DNA of 51,780 nt. Origin: Deltaproteobacteria bacterium CG11_big_fil_rev_8_21_14_0_20_42_23. GTDB taxonomy: Bacteria; UBA10199; 2-02-FULL-44-16. The notes below the pieces were generated by a model. The model did not search any database. It was not told the DNA's origin and was given only the letters and a program-made list of their open reading frames with translations. Positions within the stretch are counted from its first letter, which is position 1. Each line of letters opens with the position of its first letter. The DNA lies in contig PCXC01000017.1 of the NCBI GenBank assembly GCA_002796345.1, positions 1 through 51,780 on the forward strand. Reading direction: 5' to 3'. Made by a program: the position numbers and the translations under genes. Below, in pieces: positions 35,473 through 51,724 of the stretch.

Positions 35473-36747
35473 TTAGTGCGTTAACAACAACACCACTCCC
35501 GTTACAAAAATATTTAAGATGCCAAGGGGAATCATTACTTTCCATCCAAGTTTCATCAACTGATCGTATCGAAAACGTGGGAGCGTCCATCGCACCCAGA
35601 TAAAGGTCCAAATGAAAAACAGCGTCTTAGTCAAAACCACAATCATCTGCAAGAGAAAGACAGCAATACTGCCAACCCACTCTGGAAGCGTTGCACCCGT
35701 GAGCGCAAACACAGCTGCAGCAAGACCTGCAGCGAGGCCTGCTAAAATGACCGCGAACAGAAAAGATTCGTAATCGCGAAGATCGCCCCAAAATCCACGA
35801 CGTTTCACAAAACGATTAAAAAGCCCAGCTGCACCAAGAGCTGCAAACACAGCTCCACCAATACTTAGCAGACGAAGCACGTGTTCGATATTGTGGTGTA
35901 GGTATTCAGAACTTACGTAAGGAATATTCCATCCACCAAAGAAAAGCATGGTCACCAACAACGAACCCACAATAATGTGCGTGTACTCACCCAAGAAAAA
36001 GAGGGCAAAACGCATCGAGCTATACTCAGTATGAAAACCAGCTGTTAACTCGGCTTCGCCTTCGGGAAGATCGAAGGGTGTGCGGTTTGCTTCGGCAAAA
36101 AGTGCGGTGAAAAAGAGGATGAAGGCAAGCGGTGCTCTGACAATGTTCCAGGAAAGTAGCGACACCCCTTGACTTGCCACGATGTCATTAATGCGAAAAC
36201 TTTCTGAAAGCATAAAAAGAGGAACAACAGAAAGGCCAAGTGCAATTTCGTAGCTCACCATTTGCGATGAAGCACGAACGGCGCCAAGCAGCGAAAACTT
36301 TGAGTTTGAGCCCCAACCTGCAAGCAGGAGTGCATAAATAGACAACGAAGAAAGAGCAAAAATATAAATAAGGCCGGCGTTCAAATCTGAAATCTGCAGC
36401 TGAAAACTTACGCCATTGATAGTAAAAGCTTCTGCAAATGGAATAACCGCTGAAACTGAAATAGCCACAAACACCGCAATAATCGGCGCCAAAATCACCA
36501 AGGCTTTGTTGGCATGTTCGCTTGAAAAATCAGTTTTGGTAATCAGCTTAATGGCATCAGCAATGCTATGAACAATTCCACCAAGTCTAATAATACCAAA
36601 GGCTGTAGCGCGGTTTGGACCACGGCGATCTTGAATAAAAGCAGCGCCTTTTCGCTCGATCCAAATCAGCAACGGCACCAACTTGAGCAGCATCATCATT
36701 ACCACTACAACTTTAAGAACGGAAAGAAGAAGGCCTAACGATGTCAT
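35473..36747 (-). CDS. nuoH: NADH-quinone oxidoreductase subunit H
   Basis: NuoH forms much of the quinone chamber and joins the two arms of complex I. The 424-residue protein shows IERKGAAFIQDRRGPNRATAFGI (family: RxGPNRVG), VRASSQMVSYEIALGLSVVPLF, NRTPFDLPEGEAELTAGFHTEYSS with the conserved acidic loop, and LFFIWTFIWVRWTLPRFRYDQLMKLGWKVMIPL at the C-terminus. It is longer than many NuoH proteins, mainly through a hydrophobic and basic insertion of about 80 residues after TEYSS. Its start shares ATGA with the nuoG stop. Confidence 0.95.
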   Translation of the reverse strand: MTSLGLLLSVLKVVVVMMMLLKLVPLLIWIERKGAAFIQDRRGPNRATAFGIIRLGGIVHSIADAIKLITKTDFSSEHANKALVILAPIIAVFVAISVSAVIPFAEAFTINGVSFQLQISDLNAGLIYIFALSSLSIYALLLAGWGSNSKFSLLGAVRASSQMVSYEIALGLSVVPLFMLSESFRINDIVASQGVSLLSWNIVRAPLAFILFFTALFAEANRTPFDLPEGEAELTAGFHTEYSSMRFALFFLGEYTHIIVGSLLVTMLFFGGWNIPYVSSEYLHHNIEHVLRLLSIGGAVFAALGAAGLFNRFVKRRGFWGDLRDYESFLFAVILAGLAAGLAAAVFALTGATLPEWVGSIAVFLLQMIVVLTKTLFFIWTFIWVRWTLPRFRYDQLMKLGWKVMIPLGILNIFVTGVVLLLTH

Positions 36748-42461: not shown

Positions 42462-43307
42462 CTACTGCGAAAGAGTTACACCCCATTTACTCCAAGGAGT
42501 TGCTGAAGCATCGTTGGTAATGCTGATCACATTTCCATTATCGCCTGTTGCTTGCAGTTGCTTCAACTCTTCTGCTGCCATGCGCCCTTCCACTGTTGCG
42601 GCGTGCTGCTTCGCAAGTTCAGTGTAGGCAGCTATTGCAGCCCGTTGGTATGGCGCTGAACGAACAATAAGTTCGTCTTCTGTAATTTTTCCGTTAAACA
42701 AAACCCAGGTCCACTTTCTCCAAATGAAGGAGACATCTTCGTTTACCCGTGCCCACAATAATCTCGCTTTTCGATTCCACTCTCCAGAGGGATGCTGCTT
42801 CTGGAATTTTTCAATGCGTGGAAGCACTTTGTCTGGGTGGCCCTCCAGCTTAAGCAGAAGCTGGTAAAACTCAGCTTCATCGACAAATGTGCTTTTCGAA
42901 TGACGCTTCAACACTGTTTTATAATGACTTCCCGTATACGCAATATAAGCAACACTGGTTCCACCAATATAATCGAACGCATTTTTGCCATAGATCTCGT
43001 TCAAGCGTTTTGCTTCATCTCTCATGCAAGCTGGCGTGCTTGGAGCCTTTGAACCCCAATAACATTTCTTTTCTGCACGCTCACTAAACGTATCTTGGAG
43101 CAAATCTAAAATTCTTGCTGTAACCGCTAAGGCTTGTGCTGCGTTACTTTCCCGCGGGTGTTCTTGTGCAAACTGTGAAAGCATTTTTGCACTTTCTTCC
43201 AACTTTTTTTCCTTCAAGAGCTTCATGCCATCATCAAACTGAGAGGCAAAAGCCGACGACGAAACCACAAAAAAACTGAGAAAAAGAAGTGTCACGAAAC
43301 GTTTCAT
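42462..43307 (-). CDS. Exported TPR-like protein inside the nuo cluster
   Basis: This 281-residue protein begins with a signal peptide (MKRFVTLLFLSFFVVSSSAFA-S). The mature part is helical and TPR-like (FDDGMKLLKEKKLEESAKMLSQFAQEHP, AEFYQLLLKLEGHPDKVLPRIEKFQKQHP, AAIAAYTELAKQHAATVEGRMAAEEL), with two cysteines in KKCYWGSK and PACMRDE. It sits between nuoB and nuoCD on the same strand, with gaps of 42 and 24 bases, and so is probably part of the operon. It is not a known complex I subunit. A periplasmic assembly or envelope role is a guess. Confidence 0.7.
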   Translation of the reverse strand: MKRFVTLLFLSFFVVSSSAFASQFDDGMKLLKEKKLEESAKMLSQFAQEHPRESNAAQALAVTARILDLLQDTFSERAEKKCYWGSKAPSTPACMRDEAKRLNEIYGKNAFDYIGGTSVAYIAYTGSHYKTVLKRHSKSTFVDEAEFYQLLLKLEGHPDKVLPRIEKFQKQHPSGEWNRKARLLWARVNEDVSFIWRKWTWVLFNGKITEDELIVRSAPYQRAAIAAYTELAKQHAATVEGRMAAEELKQLQATGDNGNVISITNDASATPWSKWGVTLSQ

Positions 43308-44543: not shown

Positions 44544-45872
44544 ATGAAAAAATGTGCAATGTACTTGGGAGGAGTTTTTTTATTTACCCTGCTTACGGCC
44601 TGTCATGGCGGGCAAATTGTCCGTGATTTTGACGTGGGAAAAGTCGCGGAAACTTCAGATGGTATTGAGACTCTTGCCACACAAGATCAAATTGAAACCT
44701 CAATACTCCCAGAACCCGAAGTGAAAGAAACGCTGGAATGCCTTAAGCCAAAAGCTGAAGGCCCCGTTGTGATTACTCCCAGCTGCGGATGCTTGGACGA
44801 CCTTCCAGAAGATGCCGATGTTGTAGCCTGCGTCAATACAGCCGGCCTCAAAGAATCAACACTCCTGGCGCAGTACCTTTCCATGGAAGCAGATGGAGAA
44901 AAAACAGAAACACGAACGTTGCTGGAACAAATGTTCAACTTTTTACCTCCACGCATGGGCATCGCCATTAAATATAAGGACGAATACAAGGCAAATCCAG
45001 ATACCTTCTGCCTTTCACAAACATCAACACCCGCAAGCACAAGTGACGCTTATGTTCCTTCTGGAAATTCCATTGGAAGCGCATACGGCAGAAATGCTTA
45101 CACCACAAATGGAAGCGGGCTAACGCTTGGCCAAAACTACAATTATCCTAGCAATGATACTTATGGTGGTGAATCGCATATTTTATCAGAAGCATCACCT
45201 TCTACCACAAGCGAACCAACTGAAACATGCAGTCTTTCGCAAGCCATTAAAGAAATTGTGGTCGTAGCCTATCCCGATGAAAGTGACAAAAGTTCTATTT
45301 GGGCTTTAGATTCTTGGTTGAGTTCTAAAGAAGGAGACGCAAAACCAGTGCTTACAGCAGAAGAACAGACGGCGTTGGGAACGGTTCCCGAACAAGCAAG
45401 TCTTTTTTCTCGCTACGAGTTAAGCACCGAAAGTGCCACGGCTTCATTTCAAGAATCACTTTTTATTGCACGAAAATCAGCGGGAAAAATTTTGGTGGGA
45501 ACGGCAAAGTATCTGAACGCTTCATTTTCAAAACCAGCTGAAGTATGTGGGTTACATCCTTACCAACAATTACTGAATGGATTTAGACCTTCCAATTTTG
45601 TTCTCATCGGTCAAGTAGCGCAAGGAAGTTTCAATAAGTTTTCTTCTCTCTTTTTGGTGAAGGAAGCCCCAAAAGAATCTCTGCCTTACTTTGCGGGCGC
45701 CATGAATTTTAGCGGCGACATGCTCTATGCCCACATCAAAGGATTGTGGGACAAAGACAAACCCGCCATCGAACTTATGACCGTGCTCAACACTTCGCTG
45801 CTAGACCTCAATAAAGTAGACACAGCACTTGAAGAAGAAACAGCGCAGAGCATTGGCAGCAGTAATCAATAA
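44544..45872 (+). CDS. Lipoprotein of unknown function, first of three
   Basis: The 442-residue protein carries a lipoprotein signal ending LLTAC (Cys20), so it should be lipid-anchored in the envelope. A Cys-containing domain follows (CLKPKAEGPVVITPSCGCLDDLPEDADVVAC). The middle (about 150-230) is a low-complexity Ser/Thr/Asn/Gly/Tyr linker with SYGRN-like and NYPSND segments. The C-terminal half (about 230-430) resembles a soluble alpha/beta domain with SSIWALDSWLSSKEG and LHPYQQLLNGFRPSNFVLIGQV. I recognise no family. GGGAGGAG lies 4 bases before the ATG. The two following lipoproteins start 19 and then 14 bases after the preceding stop, so the three form an operon. Confidence 0.7.
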   Translation: MKKCAMYLGGVFLFTLLTACHGGQIVRDFDVGKVAETSDGIETLATQDQIETSILPEPEVKETLECLKPKAEGPVVITPSCGCLDDLPEDADVVACVNTAGLKESTLLAQYLSMEADGEKTETRTLLEQMFNFLPPRMGIAIKYKDEYKANPDTFCLSQTSTPASTSDAYVPSGNSIGSAYGRNAYTTNGSGLTLGQNYNYPSNDTYGGESHILSEASPSTTSEPTETCSLSQAIKEIVVVAYPDESDKSSIWALDSWLSSKEGDAKPVLTAEEQTALGTVPEQASLFSRYELSTESATASFQESLFIARKSAGKILVGTAKYLNASFSKPAEVCGLHPYQQLLNGFRPSNFVLIGQVAQGSFNKFSSLFLVKEAPKESLPYFAGAMNFSGDMLYAHIKGLWDKDKPAIELMTVLNTSLLDLNKVDTALEEETAQSIGSSNQ

Positions 45873-45891
45873 CGGGAAAAGGGAAACGAAG

Positions 45892-48384
45892 ATGAAAACA
45901 CTTCAACACATTTGCTTTCTTTTTATAGCGCTCGTCATCGCAAGCTGCAGCGGAGGAAATTCTGGCAGCAGCACTCCTGCGGCTGCTACTTCCATTGCTG
46001 GCATTATTGATTCTGAACAAGATTATCTTTTTCAACATGAAGCTTTTAGCCTGAGCATTTCTGCAAAAAGTTTTGATGATGAGGAAAGTGTTGAATACAA
46101 AGGCTTTGAGACAGGTGAAGACAAAGTTGACATCACTTCTCTTGGAAATAATTTTACTTTAGTAGGAACTCCGCTCGTTTTACATTTCAACTCTACTCAT
46201 ATGAGTGATGCTGACAAACCTCTTATCATCACCCTTCCCATTCCTGCTGGCGTTGATATGAGCAAAGGCATCATGCCTTTCATTCGCCTTATGGGTTCAT
46301 CTGTTGAGAATGGAGAAATGCATCAAAAAAAATGGCGGCCGTTCATTGGAAAAGTTGATGCTGAAAAAAGAACAATCACTCTTCATCTTTTCAGAACTGC
46401 AGAAAATGTAGAACTTGTCCTGATGCAGTTTAGAGGAAATGCAACTGATCAAAGTTTACATATTTCAACCAATGTGAAAAGCGCAGCGCAGGCTTTATCT
46501 GCTCAAACAAATGTGGGCAAAAATATTCCTGAAGGAGAAGAGGAATGGTATGAACTTCCGTGGGCTCTTGTGTGTGATGTAAGCAACAACATCAGCGATG
46601 AACATTTAAACACCTGCCAAACAGTTGCTGGTGAATTTCTTGCTCCATTTTTAAATCAAGTGTCTCAATATTTTAAAGAACTTCGCTTTACGCCAATCGC
46701 CTTAAATTTTGCGCTTCTTGAAGAAATACGAGCTGTTGCAGGACAAGATTTCACGACAAGCTTAAGCGCAGAACTTGATGACCGAAGACCGCATCTCCCC
46801 ATCATTCTTACTGCTGCTGGCATGTGCCCAGTGTTTACGCATAGTTGCTACGACGACAGCACGCATACAATATACATTACTTACGACATCTTCAATCCTA
46901 ACGAAGTTCCTTTTGCCAATTTAGAAATCGCGGACACTCTTTTTAAGAGTTTTATTTCACAGAATTACAAAGGCGAAAATAAAACAGACCTTTTCTCATC
47001 AAAAATGTCATGGCTTCGAAACGGAATGGCTATCGCCCTTCAAGATGCGATGGCTCCTGGATTTGCAGACCAGCACTATGGTGAACGAGACTGGAAATTA
47101 GCTTTAAACAAAATAGATGATATCCCAGCTGTAATTTGGGAAGATGCTGATGGAAATCAGAACTTTCCAGCACTTACTTTTCCAGACCGACAAGTGCACC
47201 CTGTCTTTTCAGTTCCGTCTATTGCAAATGCAACAGGAAATCCCATTTCTTATTTCAGTGGATTTTGGAAAAATCTTGATGGCATTAGCTATGAAAAAAT
47301 TGCAGATGCTTTTAGGGGAAGTACTGGAGAAATTTTCCCTAACCATCTTAAAGACTTTTATACTGCACAAAAAGCTGCCGGAAAAATTGAGTGCCCAGTT
47401 GTTGAAGCGAGAGCTGACGGATTTGCAAGTGGCGAAGAAAAATTTGTGTGGCCACGAACTCATCCCATGGCAAGTTCATGTATGACCATAAAAAGTCCCG
47501 ACAGAAAAAAATGTATGAACCTTCGCAGATTGGGTGATGGCATTTTTTCTGCCAATGGTCTTGTTCCCACAAATAATGCAGCTCTTCTTCTGGTAAGTGG
47601 AAATGGAAACACGCTTCCTCTTTCTGCTGCAGATGGTGTTCTCAAAACCGATGCAAGCTCACTTACGCTTCAGTATATTTCAAACACAAATTACGAAGTT
47701 GCAAATAGTGATCAACTGGAAACTACGGTAGGTATTACATTAGAAGACTGTCAGCATGATGCGTTTGAAGGGGTGTGGTTTTTACAATCATCTCAATCTG
47801 AAAAAAGAAGCTACTATCCTTGGAGAAACGGTGATGCAGATGTAGATGTTTCTAGCCGTGATTATTCACAGTGCTTAACGCCAGTTCAAGTTAATGGCGC
47901 ATCATATATGATCATCAAGAAAAAGCCTGACGTAGACAACACCTACCTCATACAAATACGTCCTTCCATTTTATCAAGCGCTGGAAACTCAAATTGGAAA
48001 GAAGTTGTCGTAAGTGGAGTTGAGCAAAACATGCTCGACTTCCGCTTAAGCTATGTTGATTTTCCAGAGATTGGCAATAGTCAAAACATCACTGCTTTTA
48101 GTTCGCGAGAGCATTTGGTGTTAAATGATTCTGGAAACATCAGCAATCACACAAGTGGTGCTTATAAATTGAAAATGGCTCATCATCAGCAATGGGTGAA
48201 TGTTCCTTACGAAGAAACGGCTGATGTAGAATACATAAAACTGTTTAACACCATAAACACGCCATTCAACTTTGCTGCAGATCCACAGCAGGCTGGTGAA
48301 GAACTTAATTGTCACGATGGCAACAACCTCTTCATCGAGGGAGTGCGGTATCAGGACTGGTTGGAACAGCAGCAACAGCCGTAA
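45892..48384 (+). CDS. Large lipoprotein, catalytically degenerate paralogue of the next gene
   Basis: This 830-residue protein starts MKTLQHICFLFIALVIASC-SGG (lipobox IASC, Cys19) and then runs parallel to the next protein: a beta-rich N-terminal domain (VEYKGFETGEDKVD ... LPIPAGVDMSKGIMPFIRL ... AENVELVL), a middle domain, then RTHPMASSCM and a C-terminal beta domain. Where the paralogue has HELFH (348-352), this protein has DTLFK at exactly the same residue numbers, and WLEE has become WLRN. The metal site is therefore lost, and this looks like a pseudo-peptidase, possibly with a binding or regulatory role. The C-terminus ends LFIEGVRYQDWLEQQQQP, a segment also found downstream of the next gene. 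The start at 45892 is set by the lipoprotein signal; a 21-residue upstream extension in frame is basic and not a signal. Confidence 0.75.
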   Translation: MKTLQHICFLFIALVIASCSGGNSGSSTPAAATSIAGIIDSEQDYLFQHEAFSLSISAKSFDDEESVEYKGFETGEDKVDITSLGNNFTLVGTPLVLHFNSTHMSDADKPLIITLPIPAGVDMSKGIMPFIRLMGSSVENGEMHQKKWRPFIGKVDAEKRTITLHLFRTAENVELVLMQFRGNATDQSLHISTNVKSAAQALSAQTNVGKNIPEGEEEWYELPWALVCDVSNNISDEHLNTCQTVAGEFLAPFLNQVSQYFKELRFTPIALNFALLEEIRAVAGQDFTTSLSAELDDRRPHLPIILTAAGMCPVFTHSCYDDSTHTIYITYDIFNPNEVPFANLEIADTLFKSFISQNYKGENKTDLFSSKMSWLRNGMAIALQDAMAPGFADQHYGERDWKLALNKIDDIPAVIWEDADGNQNFPALTFPDRQVHPVFSVPSIANATGNPISYFSGFWKNLDGISYEKIADAFRGSTGEIFPNHLKDFYTAQKAAGKIECPVVEARADGFASGEEKFVWPRTHPMASSCMTIKSPDRKKCMNLRRLGDGIFSANGLVPTNNAALLLVSGNGNTLPLSAADGVLKTDASSLTLQYISNTNYEVANSDQLETTVGITLEDCQHDAFEGVWFLQSSQSEKRSYYPWRNGDADVDVSSRDYSQCLTPVQVNGASYMIIKKKPDVDNTYLIQIRPSILSSAGNSNWKEVVVSGVEQNMLDFRLSYVDFPEIGNSQNITAFSSREHLVLNDSGNISNHTSGAYKLKMAHHQQWVNVPYEETADVEYIKLFNTINTPFNFAADPQQAGEELNCHDGNNLFIEGVRYQDWLEQQQQP

Positions 48385-48398
48385 AAAAGGAAATGTTC

Positions 48399-50624
48399 AT
48401 GCTGAAGACAAATGATAAAATAAGTTTCGCCATTGCACTTTCACTGTTGATGCTTTCCTGCAGCGGAGGAAGCTCTTCTTCCAACACAGCAGCACAAGTG
48501 TCAGATCAAGCGCCCGTTGACACAGCTGGAATCATAAGTTCCACCAACGGCATTGAAGTGAAAGAAGTCAACTTCTCTCTTAAGATTGCTGCAGATAGTT
48601 TTGCGGACGATGAAGTAAAGTACAAAGGTTTCTTCGTGGGCAAAGATCAAGTGGCAGCTGATCAAATTGATGCAAGTTACACCATCGTGGGAGAACCCAT
48701 TGTGCTTGAGTTTGACGATGGACATCTTTCACGCTCTGACAAACCAATTTTAATCACACTTCCCATTCCAAAAGAGATTGATATCAGCAAAGGTATCTTG
48801 CCTTTGTTTCGTTTTGAAGGAAAACAAATTGAATTTGAACATGTTGATGCAAGTGAATGGGATTTACTTTTTGGAAAACTTGACCTTGAAAAAAGAGAAA
48901 TCACACTACAACTTTATGCAACTGCAGAAAATGTTGAGATTATTTTAGTGCAAGATCCAAATGCTATACCTTCCGCTATAAAAAATATTCTCCCACAAAC
49001 AAATGTTTCAGAAGTTTCAAAAAGTATAGGGACAAAGTCAACAGAACCTGAAGACTTGCCTTGGTCAGAGTTGCCTTTAGCCGTTTATTGTTTGCCTAAC
49101 ATCCATACCCTTTCACACACTCCGGATTTCTTTCTGCGATGCAACAATTCTTTTGATCAGGTTGAACCACATTTCAGGCACGCAGCACAATATCTTGCAC
49201 AAATAGGAGTCGATAAAGTCGCAGCGTTAATAACTCCCCTTATCTTTGCACAAATGGTCTACACCTACCCTATTGTAGCAAGGGACCATAATCCTAATAC
49301 ATTTCCTCATTTGATGATTGCTGTAAATGGAGTTATTCGCAGAAGTTCTGTTGGTGGATACAATCCAGCCTCTCGCATAATGCATATTTCATTAAAATAT
49401 GCAGAAGAAGGCGGAGAAAATCTTTCAATCTTATTAATACACGAATTATTCCACGCCTTTCAATATTCAGCATATCAAGGAAAACGCAATAACCCTTATG
49501 CAGGATGGCTTGAAGAATCTACTGCTCAAGCTTCAGAGAATTTTTATGAAAATAGTGATGGCATTACAGGTAGATGGGAAATTCCTTTACGCACCTATAA
49601 AAGCAAGGGGCCTCAATACGACAGGTATCCCCTTTACAGCCATGGAAACTTAGCTTCTCCAAATGCTCTTACTAATTTTTGGAAAAAGCTCATGAGTTAT
49701 GTTGATGGTAAGCTAAACTATAATAATACCGAAATAACTTATAACGAAACGTTTGGGAAAATAGGGAGGTCTTTCACAGATCAGTTTATTGCAGTCAATG
49801 ACTCTGCTCGTCAAAAGAAAAAAATTAAATGTCTTCCAGTAGAATTAGACACTGATGCAAATGGCCAAAACTATTTTGTAATGACCACTCACCCTATGGC
49901 AAGTAGTTGTGTAAACGTCTCTGGAGACACTCGTCAAAACCAATGTGTTGCACGTATAAAAAGGCACGCTTCAAACAATGCTGTTATCGCATTGGCATCA
50001 GACGTTGGGAACAATACTCCATCAGGAGAACTCCCTGCTAATACAGAAGTGGAAATCGATGCTTCAGCCGTTCAAATACACCTCATTTCTTTTCATGATT
50101 TCGATCTTCCTGACAATGCAACAATTGAAAATAGATTCGATGTTTGGTTTGATGAAGAAGGTGTGAACTGTGAGTCTGATCCATTTACAGGAGTATGGTT
50201 TTTAGAATCCTACACTGAAAATGGTGTTCCTCATGATTATCGAACTAGGATTCCACCTTTTGATTTAAACAATTTTTTTATTGTTGTTTCACCAAAGCAA
50301 GTTGGCTTTACTACTCTACAAGCTGATCGGGAAGAATATGGAAAATATTTACTGCGCTTCAAGAACGCCGGTCCTTTACCTCCAACTGGTGAATATGGCT
50401 TTTATACCGAAATAAAAGGAAATGAGAGCAAATACTTTGACAACATCCTTCATGATACTGATTTCAGGGATTTTTATGATATTAATGGTGAGGGCGTGCC
50501 ATATCTCGATCTTCATGAAACTGTTACCCTTGATGAAGAGGGATATCTTATTAGAGCTATTGAAGGTAACTATAAAACTTTAACAGGCAATCCCAAAAAT
50601 TTAATGCGCGCTTTGGCGGGCTAA
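48399..50624 (+). CDS. Large lipoprotein with HExxH metallopeptidase motif, ended by an in-frame TAA
   Basis: The 741-residue protein has a lipoprotein signal (MLKTNDKISFAIALSLLMLSC-SGG, Cys21). Its middle domain contains LLIHELFHAFQYSAYQG (HExxH, H348-H352) followed 20 residues later by WLEEST (Glu372), the arrangement of gluzincin-type zinc peptidases. I infer a surface or periplasmic metallopeptidase; the substrate is unknown. N- and C-terminal beta domains match the preceding paralogue, including THPMASSC. The reading frame ends at TAA 50622-50624 after NLMRALAG, about 70 residues short of the paralogue, although the paralogous C-terminus continues in the same frame downstream. So this copy is either truncated by a nonsense change or read through. 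AAGGA 7 bases before the ATG sets the start at 48399. Confidence 0.78.
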   Translation: MLKTNDKISFAIALSLLMLSCSGGSSSSNTAAQVSDQAPVDTAGIISSTNGIEVKEVNFSLKIAADSFADDEVKYKGFFVGKDQVAADQIDASYTIVGEPIVLEFDDGHLSRSDKPILITLPIPKEIDISKGILPLFRFEGKQIEFEHVDASEWDLLFGKLDLEKREITLQLYATAENVEIILVQDPNAIPSAIKNILPQTNVSEVSKSIGTKSTEPEDLPWSELPLAVYCLPNIHTLSHTPDFFLRCNNSFDQVEPHFRHAAQYLAQIGVDKVAALITPLIFAQMVYTYPIVARDHNPNTFPHLMIAVNGVIRRSSVGGYNPASRIMHISLKYAEEGGENLSILLIHELFHAFQYSAYQGKRNNPYAGWLEESTAQASENFYENSDGITGRWEIPLRTYKSKGPQYDRYPLYSHGNLASPNALTNFWKKLMSYVDGKLNYNNTEITYNETFGKIGRSFTDQFIAVNDSARQKKKIKCLPVELDTDANGQNYFVMTTHPMASSCVNVSGDTRQNQCVARIKRHASNNAVIALASDVGNNTPSGELPANTEVEIDASAVQIHLISFHDFDLPDNATIENRFDVWFDEEGVNCESDPFTGVWFLESYTENGVPHDYRTRIPPFDLNNFFIVVSPKQVGFTTLQADREEYGKYLLRFKNAGPLPPTGEYGFYTEIKGNESKYFDNILHDTDFRDFYDINGEGVPYLDLHETVTLDEEGYLIRAIEGNYKTLTGNPKNLMRALAG

Positions 50625-50655
50625 ACACCTCTTCCACTGGTAGAAGAGGTGTTTA
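50622..50655 (+). other. Perfect stem-loop containing the TAA of the metallopeptidase gene
   Basis: Arms of 13 bp (50622-50634 and 50643-50655) pair perfectly around an 8-base loop, and the left arm begins with the stop codon. No T-run follows on either strand, so it is not a normal intrinsic terminator. It could be an mRNA stabiliser, a recoding signal or the footprint of a small insertion. Confidence 0.6.
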
Positions 50656-50828
50656 GAAGATCAGTAGAATTGAAATACAAAAGGATTTTTAAAAATTATT
50701 TTTCTTCTGATTACCAATTTACTGTGGAACCCGATCCAGAACTTGCACACTCAGATGGAGCAAGACTAAACCTCTTTATTAATGGAGTTCGTTACTTAGA
50801 CTGGTTGGAGCAGCAGAACACAAACTAA
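50625..50828 (+). pseudogene. In-frame continuation of the metallopeptidase gene (paralogous C-terminus after a stop)
   Basis: From the base after TAA 50622-50624, the same reading frame stays open for 67 codons to TAA 50826-50828. Its end reads NLFINGVRYLDWLEQQNTN, matching NLFIEGVRYQDWLEQQQQP at the end of the paralogue, and VELKYKRIF...FTVEPDP corresponds to the paralogue's VEYIKLF...FAADP. One stop codon thus separates the gene from its ancestral C-terminus, with no frameshift. Read through, the product would be about 808 residues, close to the paralogue's 830. Confidence 0.7.
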
Positions 50829-50928: not shown

Positions 50929-51003
50929 CTAAAAAATTAATTTTTCTGGGATCTTGTCAGGAGCACAGACAGCATCTGCAAAAATAAAAGCGATCATTTC
51001 TGA
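50929..51003 (-). pseudogene. Frameshifted 3' end of the twin-receiver gene
   Basis: In the frame ending at TAG 50929-50931 the minus strand reads SEMIAFIFADAVCAPDKIPEKLIF, the expected last strand of a receiver domain with its conserved Lys (PDKIPEKL). The 50957-51724 frame instead runs into RNDRFYFCRCCLCS and stops. Removing one base near 51004 would join the two parts seamlessly. Confidence 0.6.
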
Positions 51004-51724
51004 TATCATCTGAATTTTCACCAGAAGCAATAACAATCTTCCCAACACCCTGCTCTTTCAAGTAACAAAGAGTTTTAGCAAGTGTCCAAGTTGAACCATC
51101 AATATTTTTATCAACATAAGCCTGGCTGTACTTTGTGTAGTCTAGATCTTCCGCCTCACACGCTTCCATGGAAGCAAAAGTATCAAGATGCTCAATACCC
51201 AATCGCTGTTTACTCACCTTCCAACTCAAACGAATGCCTTCATCGTCATCGATGACTAAAATACTCATGCTTCGTTGTTCGTTGTTTATCGTTTGTGAAT
51301 CTGAAGGCTGCACTTCCTGACCCAAGAGCTTCAAAGAAGCTCGCAGCTTGATCGGAACAAATCCAGCTAAACTCTTCGGAATGAGTTTAATACCAAGCTC
51401 TTTGCACTTTTCTCTCACCTCAGGCTCTTCATATCTGCTAGAAACAAGAATTGTTTGTTTGTGAACCCCAAGTTCTTCGACAATTTGAACACCATTTTCG
51501 TTTTCACCTAATAATTCATAGTCGCAAAGAAAAAGAGTTCGTTCACTTCCATTATTTTGATTCTTGTACCATTTTTTTAATTCTAACCCAGATGAAAAAT
51601 GAGAAATCGAAAATTCTTTAGGGTTATCTTTTCTCAATACATCAAACTTACTCTTCCATACTTGGTGAATTGATGTTTCGTCATCGAGAATAACTAGTTC
51701 CCCCTGAAAAACCCATTTTTTCAA
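50957..51724 (-). CDS. Twin receiver-domain protein (response-regulator type), frameshifted at its 3' end
   Basis: The 255-residue frame holds two response-regulator receiver domains in series. The first (about 8-125) has ELVILDDETSIHQVWKSKFD, with the acidic pocket, LFLCDYELLG with the phospho-acceptor Asp, ILVSSRYEEPEVR, and LIPKSLAGFVPI with the conserved Lys. The second (from about 152) has SILVIDDDEGIRLSW, YVDKNIDG with its acceptor Asp, and KIVIASGENSDD, then loses its frame. The first domain's wording (DDETSIHQVW, ILVSSRYEE, PKSLAGFVPI) is what follows the kinase core in certain hybrid histidine kinases (family knowledge). The TTG start at 51724 overlaps the stop of an upstream frame (TTGA), so it may be the tail of a split kinase or a coupled separate gene. 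Confidence 0.65.
   Translation of the reverse strand: MKKWVFQGELVILDDETSIHQVWKSKFDVLRKDNPKEFSISHFSSGLELKKWYKNQNNGSERTLFLCDYELLGENENGVQIVEELGVHKQTILVSSRYEEPEVREKCKELGIKLIPKSLAGFVPIKLRASLKLLGQEVQPSDSQTINNEQRSMSILVIDDDEGIRLSWKVSKQRLGIEHLDTFASMEACEAEDLDYTKYSQAYVDKNIDGSTWTLAKTLCYLKEQGVGKIVIASGENSDDIRNDRFYFCRCCLCS

Follow-up and report, generated by a model that had tools for sequence, protein, structure and literature searches.

Tandem lipoprotein genes beside the nuo operon

The 51,780-nt stretch of DNA analysed here (the window) carries two adjoining plus-strand genes, 14 bp apart, whose predicted products we call protein A and protein B (Table 1). The two proteins are homologous almost from end to end (26% identity; BLASTP score 211 bits, E = 4e-62), which bears out the preliminary description of the locus as a tandem of lipoprotein paralogues. 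All motifs quoted in that description lie at the residues given there, i.e., DTLFK (348-352), WLRN (374-377), YKGF (69), LPIP (115), AENVE (170), and THPMASSC (523) in A, and HELFH (348-352), WLEE (370-373), YKGF (75), LPIP (121), AENVE (176), and THPMASSC (497) in B. Both proteins start with an N-terminal signal and a lipobox cysteine, placed by inspection at Cys19 of A (in LVIASCSGG) and Cys21 of B (in LLMLSCSGG), and this cysteine column is invariant in a six-member alignment; A and B are probably exported and lipidated.

Table 1. Features of the tandem locus and its immediate surroundings (window coordinates)
Feature	Position	Strand	Basis
Third lipoprotein, 442 aa; neighbour, possibly on the same transcript as A and B	44544..45872	+	Relatives without A and B in G001 and G003
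Protein A, 830 aa; predicted lipoprotein, catalytically substituted paralogue	45892..48384	+	ORF, homology to B, profile alignment
N-terminal beta-sandwich of A, about residues 37-179	46000..46428	+	Identity to B; fold by homology from the B model
DTLFK, A 348-352, in register with HELFH (Asp replaces the first His, Thr the Glu, Lys the second His)	46933..46947	+	Profile and six-sequence alignment
Asn377 of A, aligned with Glu373 of B	47020..47022	+	Profile and six-sequence alignment
Protein B, 741 aa; predicted lipoprotein, HExxH metallopeptidase-like	48399..50624 (ATG 48399)	+	ORF, weak NCBIfam match
N-terminal beta-sandwich of B, about residues 43-185, ZU5/GAIN-like in appearance	48525..48953	+	pLDDT about 80 in most of it; Foldseek
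HELFH, B 348-352, within a predicted helix	49440..49454	+	Motif, alignments, AlphaFold model
Glu373 of B, conserved candidate third ligand, next predicted helix	49515..49517	+	Alignments, AlphaFold model
36-bp near-perfect palindrome with the TAA stop of B at its start	50621..50656	.	Arm pair occurs once in the genome
Remnant of the former C-terminus of B, same frame	50657..50827	+	40% identical to A residues 773-827

The third lipoprotein gene lies 19 bp upstream of A on the same strand, and the preliminary description had joined its product with A and B into one envelope protease system. Relatives of this protein occur in two sister genera (G001 and G003), both in genomes without A and B; the G001 relative adjoins the nuo genes at the same position as in the window, that of G003 lies on a short contig, and in both genomes the next genes downstream are the same, one exonuclease-like and one oxidoreductase-like. 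A common system encoded at 44544-50624 would fit the shared strand and the narrow gaps, but it is hardly credible given that the third lipoprotein stands without A and B in these genomes, in G001 even at the same nuo-flanking place. It is a neighbour of the pair, not part of it.

The nuo operon itself contains, between nuoB and a fused nuoCD, a gene for a 281-aa exported protein of repeat-helix-like appearance (window 42462-43307; L034 7572-8543) that has no Pfam match and has also been retained in G001, a sister genus. The NuoH-like protein (window 35473-36747; 424 aa, with 422 aa in the G001 copy) spans a Pfam model of 298 positions, and this excess suggests an internal insertion of about 100 residues.

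Beyond the stop of B, its frame runs on for 67 codons, and the later part of this extension matches the C-terminus of A (40% identity, E = 6e-10). The simplest reading is that a 12-codon insertion truncated B, apparently recently; the tail after the stop has no clear coding bias any more, though it is short. The palindrome that holds the stop is no dispersed repeat since its pair of arms occurs only once in the genome, and it could have a terminator function or reflect misassembly close to the end of the contig. B is the HExxH-bearing copy of the pair, and its shortened end says little about catalysis because the C-termini of more distant family members differ as well. Directly downstream of the pair and near the contig end, a response-regulator-like protein with a sub-threshold Pfam match to Response_reg is encoded on the minus strand (50957-51724).

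Catalytic site and predicted fold

The motif typical of gluzincins, an HExxH followed by a downstream Glu, is present in B as HELFH and Glu373 and is conserved in all five HExxH-bearing members of the family, with H348, E349, L350, H352, A353, Q355, and E373 (B numbering) invariant among those aligned. The member from a Planctomycetota MAG also retains HExxH and Glu in the six-sequence alignment. Judged by these invariant residues, the putative zinc motif of B exceeds chance. The invariant Glu is the second E of WLEE, so that Glu372, initially singled out in B, gives way to Glu373.

For A, the register was determined with a profile built from the five HExxH-bearing members, with A left out. 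This profile places ADTLFK of A ungapped over aHELFH, and SWLRN over kWLEE, and a six-sequence MAFFT alignment gives the same A/B register; a first pairwise MAFFT alignment of A and B had a one-residue gap within the motif. The preliminary description had staked its claim beforehand on DTLFK aligning with HELFH, and the claim stands on both the profile and the six-sequence alignment. That the two motifs even share residue number 348 is partly coincidence because gaps cancel. In the profile alignment, A is substituted at all four motif positions while B has the complete HExxH...E set, as had been anticipated. By alignment, A is thus without all three predicted zinc ligands and without the putative general base, the catalytic Glu.

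Residues 24-530 of B, modelled with AlphaFold from a five-sequence alignment, reached an overall pLDDT of 52; a single-sequence prediction was set aside at pLDDT 31. The N-terminal domain, the part of the model with good confidence, forms a beta-sandwich, and the top Foldseek matches of the model include the GAIN domains of the adhesion GPCRs CD97 and ADGRB2 with a probability of 0.99. However, the E-values of these matches are 0.01-0.06, their TM-scores are low, and the domain of B has no Pfam match, so that we use the ZU5/GAIN-like label for this predicted domain as a lead only.

Confidence is low in the catalytic part of the model (pLDDT mostly 50-67), where HELFH falls within a helix spanning construct residues 318-335 (B 341-358) and Glu373 within the one that follows. 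The model weakly supports a helix order as in gluzincins or zincins. Structures of M1 and BT_4244 metallopeptidases were matched only weakly by Foldseek (E about 0.1), no match in the PDB reached E 0.001, and a fold search against viral proteins returned nothing useful. Of the gluzincin fold originally suggested for the pair, the placement of the helices fits, whereas the low-confidence model yielded no significant structural match.

A rare family with one substituted copy

The five HExxH-bearing members come from three genomes in two phyla. Apart from B, these are a protein encoded at a second locus of the same genome (C59, motif HELFH), two proteins of a related deltaproteobacterial MAG (G013a and G013b, motif HELTH), and the Planctomycetota protein (motif HELFH), which was found by a genome contig scan. 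Within the class, members occur only in the A/B genome and G013 among 46 genomes, and a wider set of 385 genomes held none beyond these two. A genome contig scan with B alone as query found no relatives, and no relatives of A or B were found on viral contigs. None of C59, G013a, G013b, or the Planctomycetota member has a tandem twin beside it, and among the members' genomes searched no other active/inactive tandem was found. Two kinds of initial hits were discarded, namely an 804-aa lipoprotein zincin with the motif HEVGHTLGLRH (G013:C5:2254; L033 2254-4668), whose likeness to A is limited to the signal region, and the hits G000:C65 and C19, which are lipoprotein signal matches only.

No Pfam family scored above its gathering cut-off in A, B, or four relatives, and PDB sequence searches gave no relevant match. 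Four of the six members match NCBIfam HExxH models, all below cut-off (best E = 6.8e-7), and an NCBIfam scan of A alone found no match. Members of the family are few, and the protein libraries searched contain no description of it.

In the family tree, A and B are sisters with support of 100/100, and the other members keep the site; its loss in A is therefore derived and postdates the duplication. A sits on the longer branch (1.56 vs 1.15). In the catalytic stretch, B is 21-25% identical to the other members, which share 27-36% among themselves. A and B are, on this evidence, a real tandem of pseudo-peptidase and peptidase in one genome, with putative functions.

Roles of A and B and comparison with known systems

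What A has kept is unevenly distributed. In the six-sequence alignment, it is 46% identical to B in the N-terminal domain, 19% in the catalytic stretch, and 19-29% in the other mature parts. Its 830 codons contain no stop despite the high divergence from B, and in codon-position composition and in-frame codon preference it is similar to B and the neighbour gene; A therefore reads as an intact, coding-like, maintained gene. Since the N-terminal domain is the best-conserved part of such a gene, the present role of A, if any, would rest on this domain.

We consider it probable that B functions as a metallopeptidase of the envelope and that its paralogue A, itself non-catalytic, works by binding. 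Tandem duplication in a rare family of lipoprotein metallopeptidases, laid out as lipobox, N-terminal beta-sandwich, and HExxH...Glu catalytic domain, would have produced both. B, which keeps the predicted zinc site, would then most likely bind zinc and act at the cell envelope by cutting a protein or peptide, while A would most likely serve as a membrane-anchored binding or accessory protein through its N-terminal domain, given its intact frame and the strong conservation of this shared part. Against this stand the weakness of the catalytic model, the lower likeness of the catalytic stretch of B to other members, and the origin of the pair from a single genome. A narrower form of the same explanation has A and B act independently, with A as a surface binding protein and the adjacency a trace of duplication; this is possible though somewhat doubtful, and it agrees with the N-terminal domain being the shared constrained part and with the other family members being single genes.

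A closer partnership could take the form of a heterodimeric peptidase in which inactive A is needed for the activity of B, on the pattern of the mitochondrial processing peptidase and of the M16B pairs of bacteria. The 14-bp spacing, the same kind of lipoprotein anchor, and the precedent of two-gene operons for active and inactive M16B peptidases (PMC11266112) would suit such an arrangement, but the HExxH-bearing members that stand without an adjoining partner imply that the family does not need one, and we regard it as unlikely. The proposal that A is a dedicated partner that captures substrates or presents them to B via its GAIN/ZU5-like domain, within an undescribed envelope metallopeptidase family, strikes us as very improbable. 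Alternatively, A might be a duplicate under relaxed constraint that is heading for loss and has no present function. Its strongly diverged catalytic core and longer branch could be taken that way, as could the disruption of the locus, where the stop-carrying palindrome cuts off the C-terminus of B. The long open frame with intact coding composition and the far better conserved N-terminal domain speak against decay, which we find quite unlikely. The clear derived loss of the complete predicted zinc site in one tandem copy of a rare lipoprotein peptidase family allows a natural comparison of which parts a pseudo-peptidase retains, in this case the N-terminal domain.

Among the closest described families is NCBIfam NF045524 (MXAN_6640 family putative metalloprotease, MXAN_6640_HExxH; E = 3.9e-6 for B, 6.8e-7 at best), with which the HExxH regions of B, C59, and others align. 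However, the model is matched only in part and B, at 26.8 bits against a curated cut-off of 140 bits, is not a member; a literature search for MXAN_6640 found nothing. Flagellinolysin (NF033876, HExxH) is weakly matched over the HExxH-to-Glu region in four members, but at 23 bits against a cut-off of 205 bits, and the family consists of lipoproteins in which no flagellin part was seen. The sequence family is absent from Pfam and stays under the NCBIfam thresholds.

The zinc motif of M16 peptidases is the inverted HxxEH, whereas that of B is HELFH, and B has no M16 match in Pfam. With M16B pairs and the mitochondrial processing peptidase (PMC11266112), the tandem shares the adjoining placement of two metallopeptidase homologue genes, one active and one without the ligands; it differs in belonging to another sequence family, in its HExxH motif, and in consisting of lipoproteins, and a heterodimer is hypothetical for A and B. 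The reach of our observations is limited by the single uncultured genome that holds the pair and by the fact that active/inactive metallopeptidase pairs are an already accepted theme, of which A and B are a new example.
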